Shown: piece after piece, positions 6,590 through 14,330 of the stretch
How positions within the stretch are numbered: the first letter of the stretch is position 1
Layout: every line of letters starts with the position of its first letter
Assembly: GCA_002693605.1 (NCBI GenBank)
Contig: NZQO01000161.1
Coordinates: forward strand, 1 to 14,330
Origin: Flavobacteriaceae bacterium
Lineage (GTDB): Bacteria > Bacteroidota > Bacteroidia > Flavobacteriales > Flavobacteriaceae
Length of the DNA stretch: 14,330 nt
Reading direction: 5' to 3'
The notes under the pieces: model-generated
What the model saw: only the letters and a program-made list of their open reading frames with translations
What the model was told of the DNA's origin: nothing
Databases searched by the model: none
Program-made: the position numbers and the translations under genes

Positions 6590-7972
6590 TCAAAGGACCG
6601 TACCGGGAAGCCATGTCACGATTACCGGGAATGCCATCAATAGGCAAACGGCGAGAAGCTGTAGCAGAACAAATGGGATAATACCGCGATAGATCGCTCC
6701 CGTCGTAACTCCAGCTGGCGCAACGCCGCGTAGATAGAATAGCGCAAAACCGAATGGTGGAGTTAAAAACGATGTTTGTAACGTCACTCCGACCATGACA
6801 CCGAACCAGATAGGGTCCACGTCCATTTGAAAGATAACCGGCCCGACGATGGGGATCGTGATCAGGACGATTTCGGCGTATTCCAGAAAGAATCCCATTA
6901 CGAACATCAAGATCAGCACAAATGCGATGGCACCAATGCGGCCCCCTGGCAATGAGGTCAAGATACGCTCGACCAGCTCGTCCCCGCCAAAGCCGCGGAA
7001 CACCAGAGAAAATATAGAGGCGCCGATAAAGATCATGAAAATCATGCTCGTGACGATCAGAGCAGAGCGCGTGATTTGTGTCAAAACCGGAAGAGACAGC
7101 CGACCCTTGAAAGCCGCAATCACTAGGGCTCCGGCAGCGCCCACACCAGCCGCCTCGGTGGGGGTAGCAATACCCGAGAGGATCGATCCAAGAACGATGA
7201 GGATCAGACACAAGGCCGGCAGCATGACTATCGCAAGCCGCCAGATCGACGTGCGCGAGCCTACTGTTTGCATCGGCGGGCAGGTACGCGGACAAAAGAT
7301 AGCAAGTAATAGCAGGTAGGCCGCATATATTCCCACCAGCATCAATCCTGGCAGCAACGCGCCCGCAAAGAGGTCAATAATGCTTAGGGGATCAAAGCCG
7401 AAATTGCCCGCTTCCTGCATCGCCTTTAGATATGCGCTTGATAGCTGATCACCAAGGATGATCAACAGGATCGAGGGCGGTATAATTTGCCCGAGTGTGC
7501 CACTGGCACAGATTATGCCGGTCGCCAGTGGTACGCTATACCCATTCCGGATCATCGTGGGCAGAGACAGTAGCCCCATGGTGACTACTGTTGCGCCGAC
7601 GATACCAGTAGAGGCTGCCAACAGCATTCCAACAATCAACACACCAAAACCGAGGCCGCCGTTAACTTGCCTGAATGCCAAACCGATGGCTTCCAACATT
7701 TCTTCAGCTATGCGAGATTTTTCCAGCACCACGCCCATAAACACGAACAACAAGATTGCCACCAGCACCTCATTCGTCATCACGCCGTAGACGCGCGACG
7801 GAAGGAACCCGAGGATTGAGGTATCAAATACGCCCGCCATCGCCCCGATCATGGCAAAACCGAATGCACCGCCCGCCAGCGCGAAAGCGACGGGGTACCC
7901 CAAGAGTACGATGGTGATGACCCCGATAAACATCGTGATACTAAGAATATCGTTGAGGAACAGCTCAGGCAT
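6590..7972 (-). CDS. dctM: TRAP transporter large permease (DctM type)
   Basis: 460 residues, almost wholly hydrophobic, with the dozen or so membrane spans of TRAP large subunits. Landmarks are LLGYPVAFALAGGAFGFAMI (about 22-41), AASTGIVGATVVTMGLLSLP, GTLGQIIPPSILLIILGDQL, GIATPTEAAGVGAAGALVIA and TLQTSFLTPPFGFALFYLRG. The IPPS and TPTEA motifs are diagnostic. The IIPPSILLIILGDQL version belongs to the mannitol/chloroaromatic-type group (COG4664), matching the TakP-like binding protein in the same operon. It moves solute with sodium ions across the inner membrane. The start is ATG 7972 with GGAG 7 bp upstream; longer alternatives would extend far into dctQ. The 8-bp overlap with dctQ implies coupled translation. 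It is the last gene of the operon. Confidence 0.95.
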   Translation of the reverse strand: MPELFLNDILSITMFIGVITIVLLGYPVAFALAGGAFGFAMIGAMAGVFDTSILGFLPSRVYGVMTNEVLVAILLFVFMGVVLEKSRIAEEMLEAIGLAFRQVNGGLGFGVLIVGMLLAASTGIVGATVVTMGLLSLPTMIRNGYSVPLATGIICASGTLGQIIPPSILLIILGDQLSSAYLKAMQEAGNFGFDPLSIIDLFAGALLPGLMLVGIYAAYLLLLAIFCPRTCPPMQTVGSRTSIWRLAIVMLPALCLILIVLGSILSGIATPTEAAGVGAAGALVIAAFKGRLSLPVLTQITRSALIVTSMIFMIFIGASIFSLVFRGFGGDELVERILTSLPGGRIGAIAFVLILMFVMGFFLEYAEIVLITIPIVGPVIFQMDVDPIWFGVMVGVTLQTSFLTPPFGFALFYLRGVAPAGVTTGAIYRGIIPFVLLQLLAVCLLMAFPVIVTWLPGTVL

Positions 7973-8486
7973 CAGGTGTCTCCGGCGAAGTATCGTCACC
8001 GCCGGTTGCCGCGCGATAGGCAAGGCAAATGCCTTGAAGAATTAGCAACGCGCAGGTCACCGGTATCACTGTTTTGAGCAGGAAAACACCTGGCAAGCCT
8101 CCGCTTTGATGCGAACCTTCGAGACGCGACCAAGAATCTGCGACAAAAGGCAAAGAAGTATAAAATATCCAGCCCATAATTGGGATCAGCAGCAGGTAGC
8201 TGCCCAGCACATCGACCCCACGTCGGTAGCGCGGACCGACATGGCCATAAATGACATCGACGCGTACGTGGCCGTGGTGTTTGAGTGTGTAAGCGGCGCC
8301 CAGCATGAAAGCGCAGGCATGACAATAAACGTAAAGTTCCTGCAAAGACGCCCAGCCAAGTCCAAAAACGTAGCGCAGCACCACGACGGCGCAAACGAGT
8401 AGCACCACAGCCAATGTAAGCCACGCCACGATTCTGCCCGACCATTCGACCAGCCATTCGATACCTGTGATGAGGCGCTCAATCAT
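7965..8486 (-). CDS. dctQ: TRAP transporter small permease (DctQ type)
   Basis: 173 residues with four expected spans: about 18-38 (IVAWLTLAVVLLVCAVVVLR), 45-65, 93-113 (YLLLIPIMGWIFYTSLPF) and 135-155 (LLKTVIPVTCALLILQGICLAY). The sequence RYVFGLGWASLQELYVYCHA is the standard DctQ pattern (R-Y-x-F ... W-x-x-E-L), and HHGHVRVDVIY is the conserved segment after the second span. It forms the membrane complex with DctM. ATG 8486 is chosen over the adjacent TTG 8489. The start lies 3 bp after the hydrolase stop codon and the end overlaps dctM by 8 bp, so all these genes should be made from one transcript. Confidence 0.93.
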   Translation of the reverse strand: MIERLITGIEWLVEWSGRIVAWLTLAVVLLVCAVVVLRYVFGLGWASLQELYVYCHACAFMLGAAYTLKHHGHVRVDVIYGHVGPRYRRGVDVLGSYLLLIPIMGWIFYTSLPFVADSWSRLEGSHQSGGLPGVFLLKTVIPVTCALLILQGICLAYRAATGGDDTSPETPDA

Positions 8487-8489
8487 CAA

Positions 8490-9356
8490 TTATGCCTGAC
8501 GTTTTAGGCCGTTATAGAGCGTGGGTCTGCGCTGTTCGTTCAATGGCCACCAGCTGCGCACCTGCCGGACATTATCCAGATTGATCACCGTCGTGATACA
8601 GCATTCACGATCGGGCGCCTGTGCAAGTGTAACGCCCCACGGATCAACTACCATGGAGCGGCCTACAAACCCGATTGGTGCAGTGTCTAATGTGCCGAAC
8701 ATGCCCGATCCGATGACAAAATATTGGTTGTCTGTCGCACGTGCACGCAGCAGAAACTCCCAGTGGTCGGCGCGAGGGGCGAGGAATGCTGTGGGAACCA
8801 CGACGATCTCAGCCCCTTTTAGCGCGTAATTCAAGAATATCTCGGGAAACCGCAGGTCCGAGCATATAGCGACGCCGATCTTGCATTGTTTCGTCTCAGC
8901 CATCACCAACTCGCTACCCGCAGTCACTTTTTCGGACTCGTGAACGTGGGGAATGTCCGGCCGACTGAGTGGATCGAACAAATGCGATTTTCGGTACTTG
9001 ATCTGGATCTTACCCGAGGGGTCAATGACGGGGGCGGTGTTATGTATCGCCCCATCCTGACCCCGCTCATATAATGAGCCGACAATCGTCATGCCGTACT
9101 CGGCAGCCTTTGCAGCTATGCGGTCCGTAGTAGGCCCAGGGATCTCTTCTGCGATCACCTTATAGGTTTCATTGTCACCCAGCCCGGTACCGGTAAATGT
9201 TTCCGGCAACACGACCAGATCCGACCCGCGTCGGCCCGCAACATCGAGAAAATCCAGAATCTTCTGAATGTTCCCCTCCTTGTCGCGGTCGCTCGCGTTG
9301 ATCTGAATGACAGAAACGATCATCTCTCTTTCGGTGGATTGGGCCATCTCATTCAT
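8490..9356 (-). CDS. Carbon-nitrogen hydrolase of the nitrilase superfamily (Nit/omega-amidase-like)
   Basis: 288 residues with the complete Glu-Lys-Cys triad: Glu52 in VVLPETFTG, Lys123 in KYRKSHLFD and Cys165 in GVAICSDLRFPEIF. The segment HWEFLLRARATDNQYFVIGSG is typical of Nit1/Nit2-like amidases, which cleave amides such as 2-oxoglutaramate or deaminated glutathione, and the C-S-D-L-R-F-P-E form favours an amidase over a true nitrilase. It is a cytoplasmic protein with no signal peptide. Its ATG overlaps the stop of the TRAP binding-protein gene (ATGA, 9353-9356), and the permease gene follows 3 bp after its own stop. The enzyme is therefore probably co-produced with the transporter and acts on the imported compound. 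In-frame ATGs at 9347 and 9323 are possible alternative starts. Family certain; substrate inferred only. Confidence 0.9.
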   Translation of the reverse strand: MNEMAQSTEREMIVSVIQINASDRDKEGNIQKILDFLDVAGRRGSDLVVLPETFTGTGLGDNETYKVIAEEIPGPTTDRIAAKAAEYGMTIVGSLYERGQDGAIHNTAPVIDPSGKIQIKYRKSHLFDPLSRPDIPHVHESEKVTAGSELVMAETKQCKIGVAICSDLRFPEIFLNYALKGAEIVVVPTAFLAPRADHWEFLLRARATDNQYFVIGSGMFGTLDTAPIGFVGRSMVVDPWGVTLAQAPDRECCITTVINLDNVRQVRSWWPLNEQRRPTLYNGLKRQA

Positions 9357-10438
9357 TCGAAGTCACCGTAATCGAGCGCTCGGGCTTCTTGATAGGCCAA
9401 CTCAGACAGCTTAGACCATTGCAACGCATCCTTGCGGAATGCGATGATCGAATCCAACACCTTTCGGCTTAGCGGATCTTGATCTGCGATGGCGGTAATC
9501 GTTTCCACCGACAGCTTGCCAAGACCGACGAGTACCTCGTCGTTAAACCTGCGTAATTCAACACCATGTTTTTCCACCAGCGTTGCCAGTGCTTGATTGT
9601 TGCGCGCGACATAGCCGCTAAGCAGCCGCTCGTTCAGCGCAGCTGAACATTGCTGAAGGATCGTTTTCAAATCGTCGTCCAAACTCTCCCACGCCGACAG
9701 GTTCACGAAATTATCCAATACAGTCGTCGGCTCGTGCCAGCCAGGATAGTAGTAATAGCTGGCCGCCTTATAAAGCCCCCCAGCAAGGTCGTTGTAAGGG
9801 CCGACCCAATCCGCCGCATCGATATTACCTGTACTGAGAGCTGTCAGCGCCTCAGATCCCGGTACTAACATGACGTTCGCCCCAGCGGCCTTCATCACTT
9901 CGCCACCCAAACCAGGAATGCGGATTTTAAGGCCCTCGAAATCAGCGAGAGAGTTGATTTCTTTGTTGTACCAGCCCCCCATTTGCACGCCAGTATTGCC
10001 GCCAAGCATGAACTTGCAGTTCATTTCGCTGTAAACCTCATCAGCCAGCGCCTGACCGTCGCCATATCGATACCAAGCGTTCATTTCCTGCGTCGTCATG
10101 CCAAAGGGCATACCGGCTAGAAACTGTGCAGCTGGGACTTTACCCTTCCAGTAATAAGGTGCGCCGTGCCCCATTTCGGCCGAGCCGCCGCTTACGGCAT
10201 CCATTATCTCCAGCGATGGAACCAATTCCCCGGCTCCATAAATTTTTAGAGACAAACGTCCATTAGTTGCCGCGGCAACCTGCTTTGTAAAGTCCTCGAT
10301 TTCACCCCACACGCCGGGCAAACCTTTTGGCCAGAAGCTGAGAAATTTCCATTCCTTACGACCTTGCGAAATAGCCGGCGTTGACAACGCGCCGCCGCCA
10401 ATTGTAGCCGCTCCGGCCAGAAACAGTCTGCGCTTCAT
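9353..10438 (-). CDS. dctP: TRAP transporter substrate-binding protein, TakP/DctP-like
   Basis: 361 residues. The N-terminus MKRRLFLAGAATIGGG followed by STPAISQG has a Tat-type or twin-Arg-like signal peptide with likely cleavage after about residue 25, so the protein acts in the periplasm. The segments GAGELVPSLEIMDAV (68-82), GGNTGVQMGGWYNKEINS (146-163), DAADWVGPYND (208-217) and SYYYYPGWHEP (227-237) closely follow the 2-oxoacid-binding TakP of Rhodobacter sphaeroides, as recalled. Gln152, Arg173, Trp211 and Glu236 lie in the conserved ligand- and cation-site segments of that family. A 2-oxo acid or related carboxylate is thus the likely ligand. ATG 10438 is supported by GGAGGAG at 10445-10451, spaced 6 nt. 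It is the first gene of the operon, and a LysR gene is transcribed divergently 138 bp away. Confidence 0.93.
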   Translation of the reverse strand: MKRRLFLAGAATIGGGALSTPAISQGRKEWKFLSFWPKGLPGVWGEIEDFTKQVAAATNGRLSLKIYGAGELVPSLEIMDAVSGGSAEMGHGAPYYWKGKVPAAQFLAGMPFGMTTQEMNAWYRYGDGQALADEVYSEMNCKFMLGGNTGVQMGGWYNKEINSLADFEGLKIRIPGLGGEVMKAAGANVMLVPGSEALTALSTGNIDAADWVGPYNDLAGGLYKAASYYYYPGWHEPTTVLDNFVNLSAWESLDDDLKTILQQCSAALNERLLSGYVARNNQALATLVEKHGVELRRFNDEVLVGLGKLSVETITAIADQDPLSRKVLDSIIAFRKDALQWSKLSELAYQEARALDYGDFE

Positions 10439-10444
10439 GGTGTT

Positions 10445-10451
10445 CTCCTCC
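10445..10451 (-). promoter_or_regulatory. Strong ribosome binding site of the TRAP operon
   Basis: The minus strand reads GGAGGAG, 6 nt before ATG 10438. This fixes the start and rules out the upstream in-frame codons back to 10513. Confidence 0.85.
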
Positions 10452-10529
10452 AAATCGGGACACGCCCCATCAATCTTTCCACTACGATTGCAAAGAGATC
10501 GAACGCCGTCCAATATCGTTTTTCAATGC

Positions 10530-10552: not shown

Positions 10553-10576
10553 CGAAAGCGCAAATTGGGATTTATC

Positions 10577-11488
10577 ATGCAGTCTCTTCGGTTGGAGCGG
10601 TTCTTGAAAGTAGCTGACAAGCTAAATTTTCGCGCGGCCGCGCAGGAACTGAATCTGGCGCAGCCCGCTCTTAGTCGTTCGATCGCGGAACTTGAAAATG
10701 ATCTCGGCACGCTGTTGTTCGTCCGAGAAGGGCGCCGCGTATTTCTCACACCGGCAGGAGAGGTTCTACAACGCGAAGGCACGAAAGCACTCCATCAACT
10801 GAACCGCGCCGAAGAACTGACACGCATCGCCGCCGCGGGTGGCGCAGGAAAATTGCGGATCGGTTACGGGGTTTTTGCTTCGTTTGGGCCAATATCCGAG
10901 ATCATTCTTGAGTACAACCGGCTCTATCCGATGTCGTCGGTGCGACTATTTAATCTCTCTACGACCGACCAGTTGACTCAGATCACCGCTGGGCAAATAG
11001 ATCTCGGGTTTGCCTTCTCATTAGCCTGCATACCCCCATGGCAATCGCGTCGCGTATCACATGAGGACTACGTGCTGCTAGCATCTCGCCAACACCCCTT
11101 GGCCCTACGCAAGTCGGTTGCTCTCGCAGAACTGGCCAGCGAGCGGTTCGTTCTCGGGAACAGAGATCGCTGGGGGCCTTACCGCAACATGATTGATGGA
11201 CTATGCTCGCACAAAGGCTTCTTGCCCAATGTGGTGGACGAAGCCGACGACCTACCTATTCTCATGGCTTTGTTATCATCGGGCATCGGTATCGCCTTGC
11301 ACGGCGCGGCAATCCGTCAATCGCTACCACCAGGGATTGTCGCAATCCCCATTGATGACGTGAATGAGACCATCGATATTAGCCTTGTTTGGAACGAAGA
11401 CGCCGATGAGGCAAACCCGTTGATCCGCAATTTCATTGCTGTCGCCGACACTGTGCTCGCAAATGCGTCCCGCGCATTTGATCAATAA
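10577..11488 (+). CDS. LysR-family transcriptional regulator
   Basis: 303 residues. The N-terminal winged helix-turn-helix covers about 1-60: RLERFLKVADKLNFRAAAQE, LNLAQPALSRSIAELENDLG and LFVREGRRVFLTPAGE, the standard LysR signature. The effector-binding domain follows from about 85 (KLRIGYGVFASFGPISEIIL) and includes QITAGQIDLGFAF and LPILMALLSSGIGIALHG. It probably senses the imported compound or a product and controls the divergent TRAP/hydrolase operon, and it likely regulates itself through the palindrome just upstream. ATG 10577 is chosen over TTG 10565: the LysR domain usually begins with few residues before the first helix. GGGA at 10567-10570 is a modest ribosome site. Function as local regulator is inferred from position; the family is certain. 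Confidence 0.94.
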   Translation: MQSLRLERFLKVADKLNFRAAAQELNLAQPALSRSIAELENDLGTLLFVREGRRVFLTPAGEVLQREGTKALHQLNRAEELTRIAAAGGAGKLRIGYGVFASFGPISEIILEYNRLYPMSSVRLFNLSTTDQLTQITAGQIDLGFAFSLACIPPWQSRRVSHEDYVLLASRQHPLALRKSVALAELASERFVLGNRDRWGPYRNMIDGLCSHKGFLPNVVDEADDLPILMALLSSGIGIALHGAAIRQSLPPGIVAIPIDDVNETIDISLVWNEDADEANPLIRNFIAVADTVLANASRAFDQ

Positions 11489-11705: not shown

Positions 11706-12299
11706 CTACGCATCACCCACGCCCGCATCCGCCAATTGCTCGCGATCCGGCAGATCGGCCAGTGTCTCGAGATCGAAGGCCACGAGGAACTGTTCGGTCG
11801 TCACGAACGTATAGGGCGCGCCGCGGCGGGGGGATCGTGGTCCGGTGCCGATGAGCTCTCGCGCGTGCAGCCGGCCGATCAGTTCGCGGTTGATCTCCTT
11901 GCCAAAGATGTCCTTGAGCCCGTCGCGGGTGATTGGCTGGTGATAGGCGATGGCGGCCAGCACGGCGATGTCGAATTCATTCAGATCGACGCGCTGATCG
12001 CCCAGATCCGCCGCCGCGCGGATCGCCGGCGCATAGGCCGGTCGCGTCCGCAACATCCAGGCGTCAGCGACGCAGGCAATTTCATAAGGACGATCGGTCA
12101 ATACCTCCGCCAGATCCCCGATGAGCAGGTCGACCGACACCCCCTGCCCCACCACCCGCGCCAGATCCTCGCGCGGCACCGGCGTGGCGGAGGCAAAGAG
12201 CACCGCTTCGATCCGCCGCAGCCATTCCCGCCAGCGTAGCTCTGACGGCAGATTGGGTAACTCGCGGTCTAGCTCGGGTTCGGGCCTGTCCTTCGCCAT
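11706..12299 (-). CDS. scpB: ScpB-family condensin accessory protein (orphan)
   Basis: 197 residues, close to normal ScpB length. The first winged-helix domain begins IEAVLFASATPVPREDLARV (30-49) and the second holds EFDIAVLAAIAYHQPITRDG (108-127). The C-terminus RRGAPYTFVTTEQFLVAFDL then ETLADLP (158-184) is diagnostic for ScpB. ScpB normally joins the kleisin ScpA and bridges SMC heads in chromosome segregation. Here neither scpA nor smc is nearby. Instead the gene starts 2 bp after the DUF1403 stop, so the two are co-transcribed. It may be a plasmid-specific paralogue that works with host SMC-ScpA, or it may have another DNA-related role. Family secure, role inferred. Confidence 0.92.
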   Translation of the reverse strand: MAKDRPEPELDRELPNLPSELRWREWLRRIEAVLFASATPVPREDLARVVGQGVSVDLLIGDLAEVLTDRPYEIACVADAWMLRTRPAYAPAIRAAADLGDQRVDLNEFDIAVLAAIAYHQPITRDGLKDIFGKEINRELIGRLHARELIGTGPRSPRRGAPYTFVTTEQFLVAFDLETLADLPDREQLADAGVGDA

Positions 12300-12301
12300 C
12301 T

Positions 12302-13192
12302 TTATATCCCGTACAGCCGAAAGCTCTCGCGACCCGTCAGCTCGCGCACCCCGCCGAGATCGACCAACCGATCGCAGAGCCGCCGCGCGGCGCGATCCGG
12401 CAGCGGCAAGGCCCCGGGCGTCACGGCATCACGGGTCAGGAAAATCTCGACCGCCGCCCCGGCCCCCTTGGCCCGAAGCTTGGGCGCCACCGCCTTCAGC
12501 TGCGCCGCCCGACGCGCAAGATCAGTGGCAAGGCGCAGGGCCTCACTGGCCGAGAGGAGTGCCGCGCGGTGACAGGCCAGATGCAGAGCCTCGCCGCTCC
12601 GGCGCAGATCGGCGCGTTTGAGGCCCGCGGCCAAGAGCGGCAGGCAGTGATCCCAACCAAGCGATTGGGCCAGCGCCGCATCGGCGAAGATCAGGCCCGA
12701 GGCCTCCGCCCGTGGCGCGGCGCGCAGGGCCGTCTCCAGCACCATCGCGGCTCGGGCCACCGGCCCCTGCCCCGCGCTGCCTGCGTCGAGCCACGCCGCG
12801 ATCCTCTCGGGCGCGAGCCTGGGCAACGCCCGGTGCAGCGCCCTGATCGACAGAGGCCGCTCCGCCGCCCGCTGCCAGGCCAGATAGGTCTCGCCCGCCG
12901 GGCCGGGCAGATCGCCGGGCCGCAAGAGGTGGAGCGCGTCACGCAGCTCCCCTGCCCTCTCGGACCGGCCGGAGAATGTGACACAGGCCTCCGCCGCCCG
13001 CAGCGCCAACCGGTCCCGCCACAAGGCCTGCGGCACGGCCTCTTGCCCAAAGGCCAGATGCAGCTGGCCCAGCGCCGCGCCCGACAAAAACGCCACATCT
13101 GCAAGGGTTTCCGCCCGCGCGGAGGTGACCCAATCGGGCATCCGGGGTAGGCTTGGCAGGTCGCTGATTGGATCGTGTCGGGCAAATGTCAT
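12302..13192 (-). CDS. DUF1403-family protein of unknown function
   Basis: 296 residues, rich in Ala, Leu and Arg and probably all-helical. The opening LPRMPDWVTSARAETLADVA, FLSGAALGQLHLAF, WRDRLALRAAEACV and LRPGDLPGPAGETYL are the segments by which I recognise DUF1403, a family from alphaproteobacterial plasmids and islands with no established activity. The C-terminal LVDLGGVRELTGRESFRLYG (about 276-295) looks like the end of a winged-helix DNA-binding unit. No membrane segment or signal peptide is seen. It heads a two-gene unit with scpB and diverges from a tyrosine recombinase across a 125-bp gap. There is no clear ribosome site before ATG 13192. Family naming is from memory and should be treated as probable. 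Confidence 0.78.
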   Translation of the reverse strand: MTFARHDPISDLPSLPRMPDWVTSARAETLADVAFLSGAALGQLHLAFGQEAVPQALWRDRLALRAAEACVTFSGRSERAGELRDALHLLRPGDLPGPAGETYLAWQRAAERPLSIRALHRALPRLAPERIAAWLDAGSAGQGPVARAAMVLETALRAAPRAEASGLIFADAALAQSLGWDHCLPLLAAGLKRADLRRSGEALHLACHRAALLSASEALRLATDLARRAAQLKAVAPKLRAKGAGAAVEIFLTRDAVTPGALPLPDRAARRLCDRLVDLGGVRELTGRESFRLYGI

Positions 13193-13270
13193 GCCACAAG
13201 ACTATCCCACGGCGGCGCTTTACGCCACAATATACTGTAGAAACCGCCCCAGCCTGTTGGGCGCCTTCAT

Positions 13271-13304
13271 GTCCAATACATTTGCATTATCGGACGTTAC
13301 GGAC
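13271..13304. promoter_or_regulatory. Cluster of three related half-sites in the divergent promoter region
   Basis: GTCCAATA (13271-13278), TTATCGGAC (13287-13295) and TTACGGAC (13297-13304) share the unit TTA(T)CGGAC, the first copy being inverted and imperfect. They lie 14-47 bp before the recombinase ATG and about 80 bp before the DUF1403 start. An operator or recombinase/accessory binding site is plausible; no function is shown. Confidence 0.4.
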
Positions 13305-13317
13305 TAGGCTCCGCCCC

Positions 13318-14330
13318 ATGTCAGACACAGATGAAAAATCAGGCCCAGACGCCCCGGAAATGACCTCAGCCCAGCCAGAAGAGGCCAGCGGCACCGCCTC
13401 TGGCGAGGCTCTGACACCTCCCTCCTTTGTGGCAGGGTCCGGGGCGCTCGACCGGCTGGTCGACACCGCCCGGGACTATGCCAAGGCCTCGACCGCCGAG
13501 AACACCAACCGGGCCTATGCCGCCGATTGGAAGCATTTCTCGCGCTGGTGCCGGATGAAGGGCATCGAACCACTACCACCCTCGCCCGAGATGATCGGGC
13601 TCTATCTCGCGGATCTGGCCTCGACCCCCCCTGCCCTCTCGGTCAGCACCATCGAGCGGCGTCTCTCGGGCCTTGCCTGGAATTATGCGCAGCGGGGGAT
13701 CACGCTCGATCGCAAGGAGCGGCACATCGCCTCTGTGCTGGCCGGGATCAAGCGTCGGCATGGGCGGCCCCCGGTGCAGAAAGAGGCCATCCTGCCCGAG
13801 GACATTCTCGCGATGGTGGCCACCCTGCCCCATGATCTGCGCGGGCTCCGGGATCGGGCGATGCTGCTTTTGGGCTATGCCGGGGGTCTGCGGCGCTCGG
13901 AGATCGTGAGCCTCGATTGCGGCAAGGATGACACGCCGGATTCGGGCGGCTGGATCGAGATCATGGAGAAGGGCGCGTTGCTCACGCTCAATGCCAAGAC
14001 CGGCTGGCGCGAGGTCGAAATCGGCCGCGGGTCGAGCGAACAGACCTGCCCTGTACACGCCCTCACGCAATGGCTGCATTTTGCCAAGATCGACTTTGGC
14101 CCGGTCTTCGTCAGCACCTCTCGGGATGGCAAACGCGCCCGCGACCGGCGGCTCAGCGACAAGCATGTGGCGCGGCTGATCAAACGGACGGTGCGCGCGG
14201 CGGGTCTGCGGTCTGAGCTGCCCGAGAAAGAGCGGCTGGCGCTCTTTTCCGGGCACTCCCTGCGTGCCGGTCTTGCCAGTTCGGCAGAGGTGGATGAGCG
14301 CTATGTGCAGAAACAGCTGGGCCATGCCTC
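13318..14330 (+). CDS. Tyrosine recombinase / phage-type integrase, 3' end outside window
   Basis: The frame from ATG 13318 stays open to the last base, giving 337 visible residues. After a low-complexity acidic leader (1-40), a SAM-like core-binding domain spans about 43-145 (ARDYAKASTAENTNRAYAAD, SVSTIERRLSGLAWNYAQRG). The catalytic domain has Arg192 in GYAGGLRRSEIVSL, a likely Lys227 in NAKTGWREVEI, His313 and Arg316 in SGHSLRAGLASSAEV, and His336 in QLGHAS. The nucleophilic Tyr would lie just past the edge. It would cut and rejoin DNA at specific sites, either to integrate an element or to resolve plasmid multimers. It diverges from the DUF1403-scpB pair. The visible catalytic residues are all present, so it looks functional. 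Confidence 0.93.
   Translation, partial: MSDTDEKSGPDAPEMTSAQPEEASGTASGEALTPPSFVAGSGALDRLVDTARDYAKASTAENTNRAYAADWKHFSRWCRMKGIEPLPPSPEMIGLYLADLASTPPALSVSTIERRLSGLAWNYAQRGITLDRKERHIASVLAGIKRRHGRPPVQKEAILPEDILAMVATLPHDLRGLRDRAMLLLGYAGGLRRSEIVSLDCGKDDTPDSGGWIEIMEKGALLTLNAKTGWREVEIGRGSSEQTCPVHALTQWLHFAKIDFGPVFVSTSRDGKRARDRRLSDKHVARLIKRTVRAAGLRSELPEKERLALFSGHSLRAGLASSAEVDERYVQKQLGHA

Follow-up and report, generated by a model that had tools for sequence, protein, structure and literature searches.

The 14,330-bp stretch analysed here (the window) spans positions 1 to 14,330 of contig NZQO01000161.1, from an assembly labelled Flavobacteriaceae bacterium (GCA_002693605.1). At its right-hand end lie three genes, encoding an ScpB-like protein, a DUF1403 protein and a tyrosine recombinase (Int), together with a 29-bp dyad and a second inverted repeat (Table 1). 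The genes scpB and DUF1403 are on the same strand with a gap of 2 bp, and from this spacing they probably form an operon read on one message. The int gene is divergent from the pair and is cut by the contig end upstream of the codon for the catalytic tyrosine. This arrangement had been described in an original prediction made from the letters of the sequence, and the list of open reading frames and the Pfam matches agree with it. The intergenic dyad, the key feature of the locus, had gone unmentioned there.

Table 1. Features of the DUF1403-ScpB-Int locus in the window
Feature	Position	Strand	Evidence and remarks
ScpB-like protein, plasmid clade, 197 aa	11706..12299	-	PF04079 (SMC_ScpB), 109.1 bits, above the gathering score (cut-off 27.4); clade support 100
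DUF1403 protein, 296 aa	12302..13192	-	DUF1403, 312.8 bits (cut-off 31.8); Fic fold and C-terminal winged helix predicted, Fic motif absent
Box AAAGCGCCG (conserved), second inverted repeat, right arm, close to DUF1403 start	13213..13221	-	47 bp from dyad
GGGCGGTTT (conserved), second inverted repeat, left arm	13241..13249	-	Column conservation, 88 loci
29-bp dyad (11-bp arms, 7-bp spacer), putative crossover site	13269..13297		Minus-strand reading ACGTCCGATAATGCAAATGTATTGGACAT
Tyrosine recombinase (Int), 3' end past contig	13318..14328	+	PF00589 (Phage_integrase), 47 bits (cut-off 27.1); catalytic residues kept in relatives

Among 8,000 proteins scored, 4,611 match DUF1403 at E ≤ 0.001. A tblastn search detected relatives of the window protein in 634 of 72,556 plasmid records, 453 of which match 80% or more of the query at a single place, and in none of 50,697 phage records; 26 pattern matches in viral contigs included no relatives. 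A scan of genomes gave at least 585 matches and at least 531 relatives, of which the best 80 (L022-L101) were kept, the nearest relatives and nearly all from Rhodobacterales. Together with the window and 18 plasmid loci picked across the rankings, they make up the 99 loci examined. Counts over these loci are not counts of independent events, because L078 duplicates L010 and because L029, L030, L031 and L035 are near copies.

DUF1403 and scpB lie on one strand in 98 of the 99 loci, the exception being probably L060, where the contig stops within ScpB. A divergent int was present in 87 of the 92 loci with either enough upstream DNA or an Int. RepA or RepC was encoded in 71 of 99 loci and in 41 of the 44 that are 20 kb or longer. 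It is clear that the linkage of the three families is far beyond chance, and the recurrent association on plasmids on which the original prediction depended is borne out. Under the prediction, scpA/smc or phage structural genes beside the locus in most relatives would have counted against it; no scpA adjoins the trio in any of the 99 loci, as opposed to 20 of 20 chromosomal scpB loci, and a phage origin was rejected for the lack of any relative in the phage records and viral contigs. In the open-licence library searched no paper was found with 'DUF1403', nor with both 'ScpB' and 'repABC'. In rhizobial plasmids a tyrosine recombinase and a toxin-antitoxin pair have been described after repABC, with ScpB not mentioned in the available part of that paper (PMC10194956).

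Variants of the pair were seen in a few places. A 281-kb Pseudosulfitobacter plasmid carries two tandem DUF1403-ScpB pairs 6 kb apart (L102:1-12882); it was considered as a natural cointegrate and set aside when a clear dyad was not found. In the Agrobacterium plasmid L005 an extra open reading frame (8952-9371) lies between DUF1403 and scpB. A DUF1403-ScpB fusion (P0323) was discarded as an apparent frameshift.

The ScpB of these loci belongs to a lineage of its own. Each of 20 host genomes gave one chromosomal-type ScpB match (163 to 174 bits) and one to six plasmid-type matches (104 to 126 bits; 46 in total, after one sub-threshold row was dropped), and each keeps its own chromosomal scpAB. 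In a 62-row tree built by a quick method, one branch with a support of 100 separates 39 plasmid ScpB from 23 chromosomal ScpB, in line with the separate clade that had been envisaged. The plasmid sequences come from Rhodobacterales and Hyphomicrobiales and the chromosomal set mostly from these hosts; L138 is a short fragment. Many fixed differences distinguish the two groups. Plasmid ScpB shares its Pfam family with the chromosomal ScpB of SMC-ScpAB but has no adjoining scpA, forms its own clade and, in the window copy, scores 80 bits on the NCBI equivalog TIGR00281, below the cut-off of 89.2. Across the two orders its mean column identity is 57%, compared with 45% for DUF1403.

The catalytic set of tyrosine recombinases consists of Arg, Lys, His-x-x-Arg, His and Tyr. 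It is conserved in the recombinase alignment, with the tyrosine present in 13 of 15 rows (the window sequence is cut and L017 has no tyrosine). The dyad beside int is the only match in the window at three or fewer mismatches, with none expected, and its right half departs from a perfect palindrome at two positions. In nearly all Rhodobacterales loci the dyad, with consensus ATGTCCGATAATGCAAACTTATTGGACAT, begins some 105 bp ahead of the DUF1403 start codon. Its two arms have changed jointly in L014 and L020. The dyad arm TCCGATAA is also the arm of Rhizobium etli attA, the att site of the characterised recombinase IntA, and a site resembling TCCGATAA-N7-TTATCGGA is present just upstream of the window int. 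Thus int with a palindromic 8-7-8 site with TCCGATAA arms just upstream is common to the trio and to R. etli p42a, as far as the available text on IntA goes (PMC4928290). According to the same text, attA reads TCCGATAAGCATTACTTATCGGA, IntA recombines plasmid with plasmid, and its frequencies in vivo are 2.4 × 10^-5 for integration and 2.1 × 10^-6 for excision; the trio Int may likewise act between plasmids. The p42a record has a site of attA form with spacer GCAGTAC 110 bp before the int start, and the GCATTAC spacer is on p42d; going by these records, the sequences of attA and attD may be swapped in the paper.

A strict dyad pattern matched 31 times among the 20 genomes (17 genomes positive), and the reversed control gave no match. 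Twenty-eight of the 31 dyads are within 2 kb of an ScpB match (compared by eye). The dyad was considered as a chromosomal dif site and rejected, since these 28 lie beside plasmid-type ScpB and none of the dyads is on a contig with chromosomal scpB. One contig, G403:C111, has dyad-ScpB sites at 105642 and 239112 in the same orientation, both near a class I TniA (see below) that is 95% identical to that of L003.

The second inverted repeat, GGGCGGTTT...AAAGCGCCG, sits between the dyad and the DUF1403 start codon. From the end of the dyad to AAAGCGCCG the distance is 47 bp in 85 of the 88 loci with both elements (45 bp once and 48 bp twice), and it is also 47 bp in the window. The search rule found no dyad in six loci, including the window with its one changed base, and the box is absent in five. 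Despite its fixed length, the 47-bp stretch has a median identity of only 64%. The repeat may be read as a putative operator and accessory site.

Natural sequences point to exchange at the dyad. Flanks were compared in 88 loci with 700 bp on each side (2,568 pairs, same insertion state only). In 16 pairs, identity over 100 bp was 98% or more on the Int side and below 75% on the other, and 14 pairs showed the reverse. First mismatches fell in or beside the dyad, with a few isolated exceptions at most 46 bp beyond it. When other positions were scanned over all pairs, the main switch peak was at the dyad (16 and 23 pairs, with up to 32 just to the right). Some plasmid pairs are identical over the whole 700 bp on one side and different on the other, the change occurring within the dyad or directly adjacent to it. 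L071 and L094 have 9.9 kb or more in common on one flank and diverge immediately on the other. Seven Int-side haplotypes are each combined with two or more haplotypes on the DUF1403 side, and the converse holds for seven DUF1403-side haplotypes. As flanks common to different plasmids switch at the dyad, exchange there is likely to have occurred.

TniABQ transposons are associated with the locus in two ways. In class I, an element of about 3.74 to 3.77 kb with TniA, TniB and TniQ separates int from DUF1403 in 19 loci, or 18 when the repeated locus is not counted. The Tni genes were called by home-made profiles, and Pfam names were given only to TniA, TniB and TniQ of L003, where the three genes fill the element and there is no resolvase. 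The type A end (..AAAACGACA) is 27 bp from the dyad in ten of 11 intact insertions (L003, L004, L010, L024, L045, L046, L065, L090, L098 and L100) and at 51 bp in L042. The sequence of these 27 bp varies among loci. In L051, which was not counted as intact, the type A end is kept at 27 bp and adjoins a type B element ending at 41 bp. Type B ends (..TCCGACA) are 41 to 55 bp from the dyad (L012, L016, L051, L064, L066 and L087), and the end type of L015 was not assigned.

In class II the trio is inside a TniABQ transposon of about 6.56 kb (6.62 kb in L089). Both ends were found in nine loci (L011, L039, L044, L077, L082, L083, L084, L089 and L092) and the left end alone in L027 and L033. The left end, TGTCGCGTTTA, precedes the dyad by 1,261 to 1,262 bp and lies immediately beyond int; the right end, TTGCGACA or ATGCGACA, follows the dyad by 5,265 to 5,329 bp. 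The two ends enclose int, the dyad, DUF1403, scpB and tniQBA. The trio occupies the position where related transposons carry a resolvase. L082, L083 and L084 are alike from the dyad to the right end and then diverge. A 9.08-kb composite version in G412 is on four contigs, each of which breaks at one of its ends; it has probably moved, since one left and one right end share an identical five bases.

These elements resemble the Tn5053 family, which the available part of PMC11406308 describes as 'res site hunters' with TniA, TniB and TniQ genes, TniQ of Tn5053-family kin targeting plasmid resolution sites. The composite class II form has the same organization, with TniA, TniB and TniQ between terminal inverted repeats in nine loci. 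The known targets given in that text are resolvase sites of Tn1721-like transposons, whereas the present elements either target a tyrosine-recombinase dyad, at a fixed distance of 27 bp, or carry the tyrosine module themselves. As to the sites entered by class II elements, an HTH_13-like gene (L082:15193-16176; 25.0 bits, cut-off 26.1) is seemingly interrupted by the transposon, and the right flanks of several other copies enter a similar gene (by eye). The HTH_13-like gene is perhaps a preferred target.

The predicted structure of DUF1403 matches Fic proteins over 264 to 268 of 296 residues, winged helix included. Residues 230-296 match winged-helix chains, so the C-terminal winged helix that had been suspected is also predicted from the structural model, and HTH_13 matches residues 262-296 below threshold (21.4 bits, cut-off 26.1). 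The Fic motif is HxFx(D/E)GN(G/K)R, and a loose pattern for it was found in none of 240 DUF1403 relatives. No sequence-level match to Fic proteins was found (hhalign probability 1.5%, not significant), and kinship is therefore drawn from the fold alone. DUF1403 is thus predicted to be a Fic fold with a winged helix and without the Fic motif. It shares its predicted fold, including the winged helix, with Fic proteins such as SO_4266 (3eqx) and that of Mycobacterium marinum (7cb8), but differs from them in motif and sequence. Since DUF1403 takes the place of scpA before scpB, it was also considered as a divergent ScpA (kleisin) and rejected, as hhalign against 20 ScpA gave a probability below 0.1% and a Fic fold was predicted; the positive control, in which plasmid ScpB was aligned with chromosomal ScpB, scored 99.9.

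The locus is probably a site-specific recombination module for the resolution of cointegrates and multimers, with DUF1403-ScpB in an accessory or regulatory role. Gene order, the dyad, fixed spacing, flank switching and the targeting and carriage by transposons were read from sequence; we infer the action of Int at the dyad, the binding of DUF1403 and ScpB there and resolution as the selected function. Int would bind both arms of the dyad and recombine across the 7-bp spacer, just upstream of its own gene. DUF1403, taken to be a winged-helix protein with a catalytically dead Fic fold, would bind the second repeat 47 bp away and there control its own operon, and an accessory complex with ScpB might decide the timing or direction of Int action. 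In large repABC plasmids the module would serve to resolve dimers and cointegrates. TniABQ transposons may take it along or insert next to it because cointegrates in need of resolution arise from their copy-and-paste transposition. The original prediction had suggested a plasmid or island maintenance unit. A maintenance or resolution role, with the recombinase acting beside the operon, still fits, and 'plasmid or island' has proved too narrow given the conserved site, the signs of exchange there in the sequences and the trio as TniABQ cargo.

The nearest plan is that of TnpS/rst/TnpT in Tn4651-type transposons, in which, according to the available text of PMC7157771, a tyrosine recombinase is divergent from a second gene, the helper, and the site between them has two inverted-repeat pairs. 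The likeness holds for gene order and dyad, and a helper role for DUF1403-ScpB is putative. The helper there is TnpT and the transposon of the Tn3 family, while here they are DUF1403-ScpB and TniABQ. The module as a whole belongs to no named family, and by this analogy it likely works as a helper-assisted tyrosine resolvase. If so, a testable function can be assigned to DUF1403 and to the separate plasmid ScpB lineage, and the module accounts for a possible exchange of arms among the large repABC plasmids of Rhodobacterales and Hyphomicrobiales. TniABQ transposons also seem both to target such a tyrosine-recombinase module and to carry it.

Several observations count against a resolution module of this kind. 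Int is missing from five of the 92 testable loci (L100, L099, L006, L054 and L016), and for three of the 31 dyads no ScpB match lies within 2 kb (G397:C14:49711, G401:C19:6142 and G412:C58:27305). The composite version in G412 has an altered left dyad half and about 2.3 kb between int and DUF1403, a point against a constant need for the dyad. R. etli IntA is only 31% identical to the window Int (318 columns), so close kinship was not found, and DUF1403-ScpB was not found beside R. etli intA, from which the pair would be dispensable for IntA. A smaller switch peak (up to eight pairs) is inside DUF1403, at +380 to +440, and homologous exchange that stops in the conserved dyad could also produce the flank switching. 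Five-base target duplications match in only two of 11 readable class I insertions (L004 and L087; L051 left out) and in two of eight readable class II insertions (L077 and L082; by eye). Such mismatches are expected from cointegrate resolution at the dyad, and homologous exchange between transposon copies predicts the same.

Plasmid ScpB might instead join host SMC-ScpA, so that DUF1403-ScpB brings condensin to the plasmid and loop extrusion sorts or aligns sites before Int acts. Plasmid ScpB is a true member of its family, with solved relatives, its conservation over two orders exceeds that of DUF1403, and all 20 host genomes have their own chromosomal scpAB. Its separate clade and many fixed differences from chromosomal ScpB make such a partnership rather unlikely, and the composite transposon layout can be explained without condensin. 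The stronger claim, that ScpB and a dead Fic-fold protein recruit host SMC-ScpA to the Int site and so gate site-specific recombination by condensin, is quite doubtful. Were it true, loop extrusion, rather than supercoiling or FtsK, would distinguish sites that share a molecule from those on separate molecules. The question raised is whether an SMC-associated protein has been recruited into site-specific recombination.

It is improbable that DUF1403-ScpB is a mere regulator or an independent stability pair that stands by chance next to int-att. This would account for the second repeat directly before the DUF1403 start, for the toxin-antitoxin genes annotated in at least eight of the 18 plasmid loci and for R. 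etli IntA, which in the available account functions without such neighbours beside int (PMC4928290). Joint carriage inside transposons, the linkage to Int in 87 of 92 loci and the fixed 47-bp spacing of dyad and box argue for a functional link between the pair and Int. The module could also serve mainly in plasmid fusion, that is, spread by cointegration, as IntA cointegrates p42a with the symbiotic plasmid (PMC4928290, available part), flanks have been shuffled between plasmids and G403:C111 holds two dyad-ScpB sites on one contig. IntA is described there as acting in both directions, however, and the TniABQ carriers show no other resolvase, which points to resolution; fusion is thus an unlikely main role.

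The window itself is probably a misplaced piece of an alphaproteobacterial plasmid. The trio block has a G+C content of 67%, compared with 55.5% in the remaining window. Similarity to window DNA was found in 164 plasmid records, and 13 of the 15 best matches run from 11717-11787 to 14330 (75 to 77% identity over 18% of the window, centred on the trio block). In its assembly, which looks like a mixed bin, the seven other contigs range from 38 to 60% G+C. DUF1403 was found in one of 395 genomes of a class sample, namely the window's own assembly, and no ScpB match was found in four genomes of the same family or order. For one metabolic gene of the window, best identities to the family of the bin and to Rhodobacterales are about equal (45% and 42%). 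No Tni gene was detected in the window by the home-made TniA/B/Q profiles, the window stopping inside int. Four plasmid records reach at least 90% identity to some part of the window. Outside the trio, positions 6590-10513 encode TRAP transporter genes flanking a nitrilase-like gene, with a LysR regulator adjoining at 10565-11488, which plausibly form a catabolic cassette.

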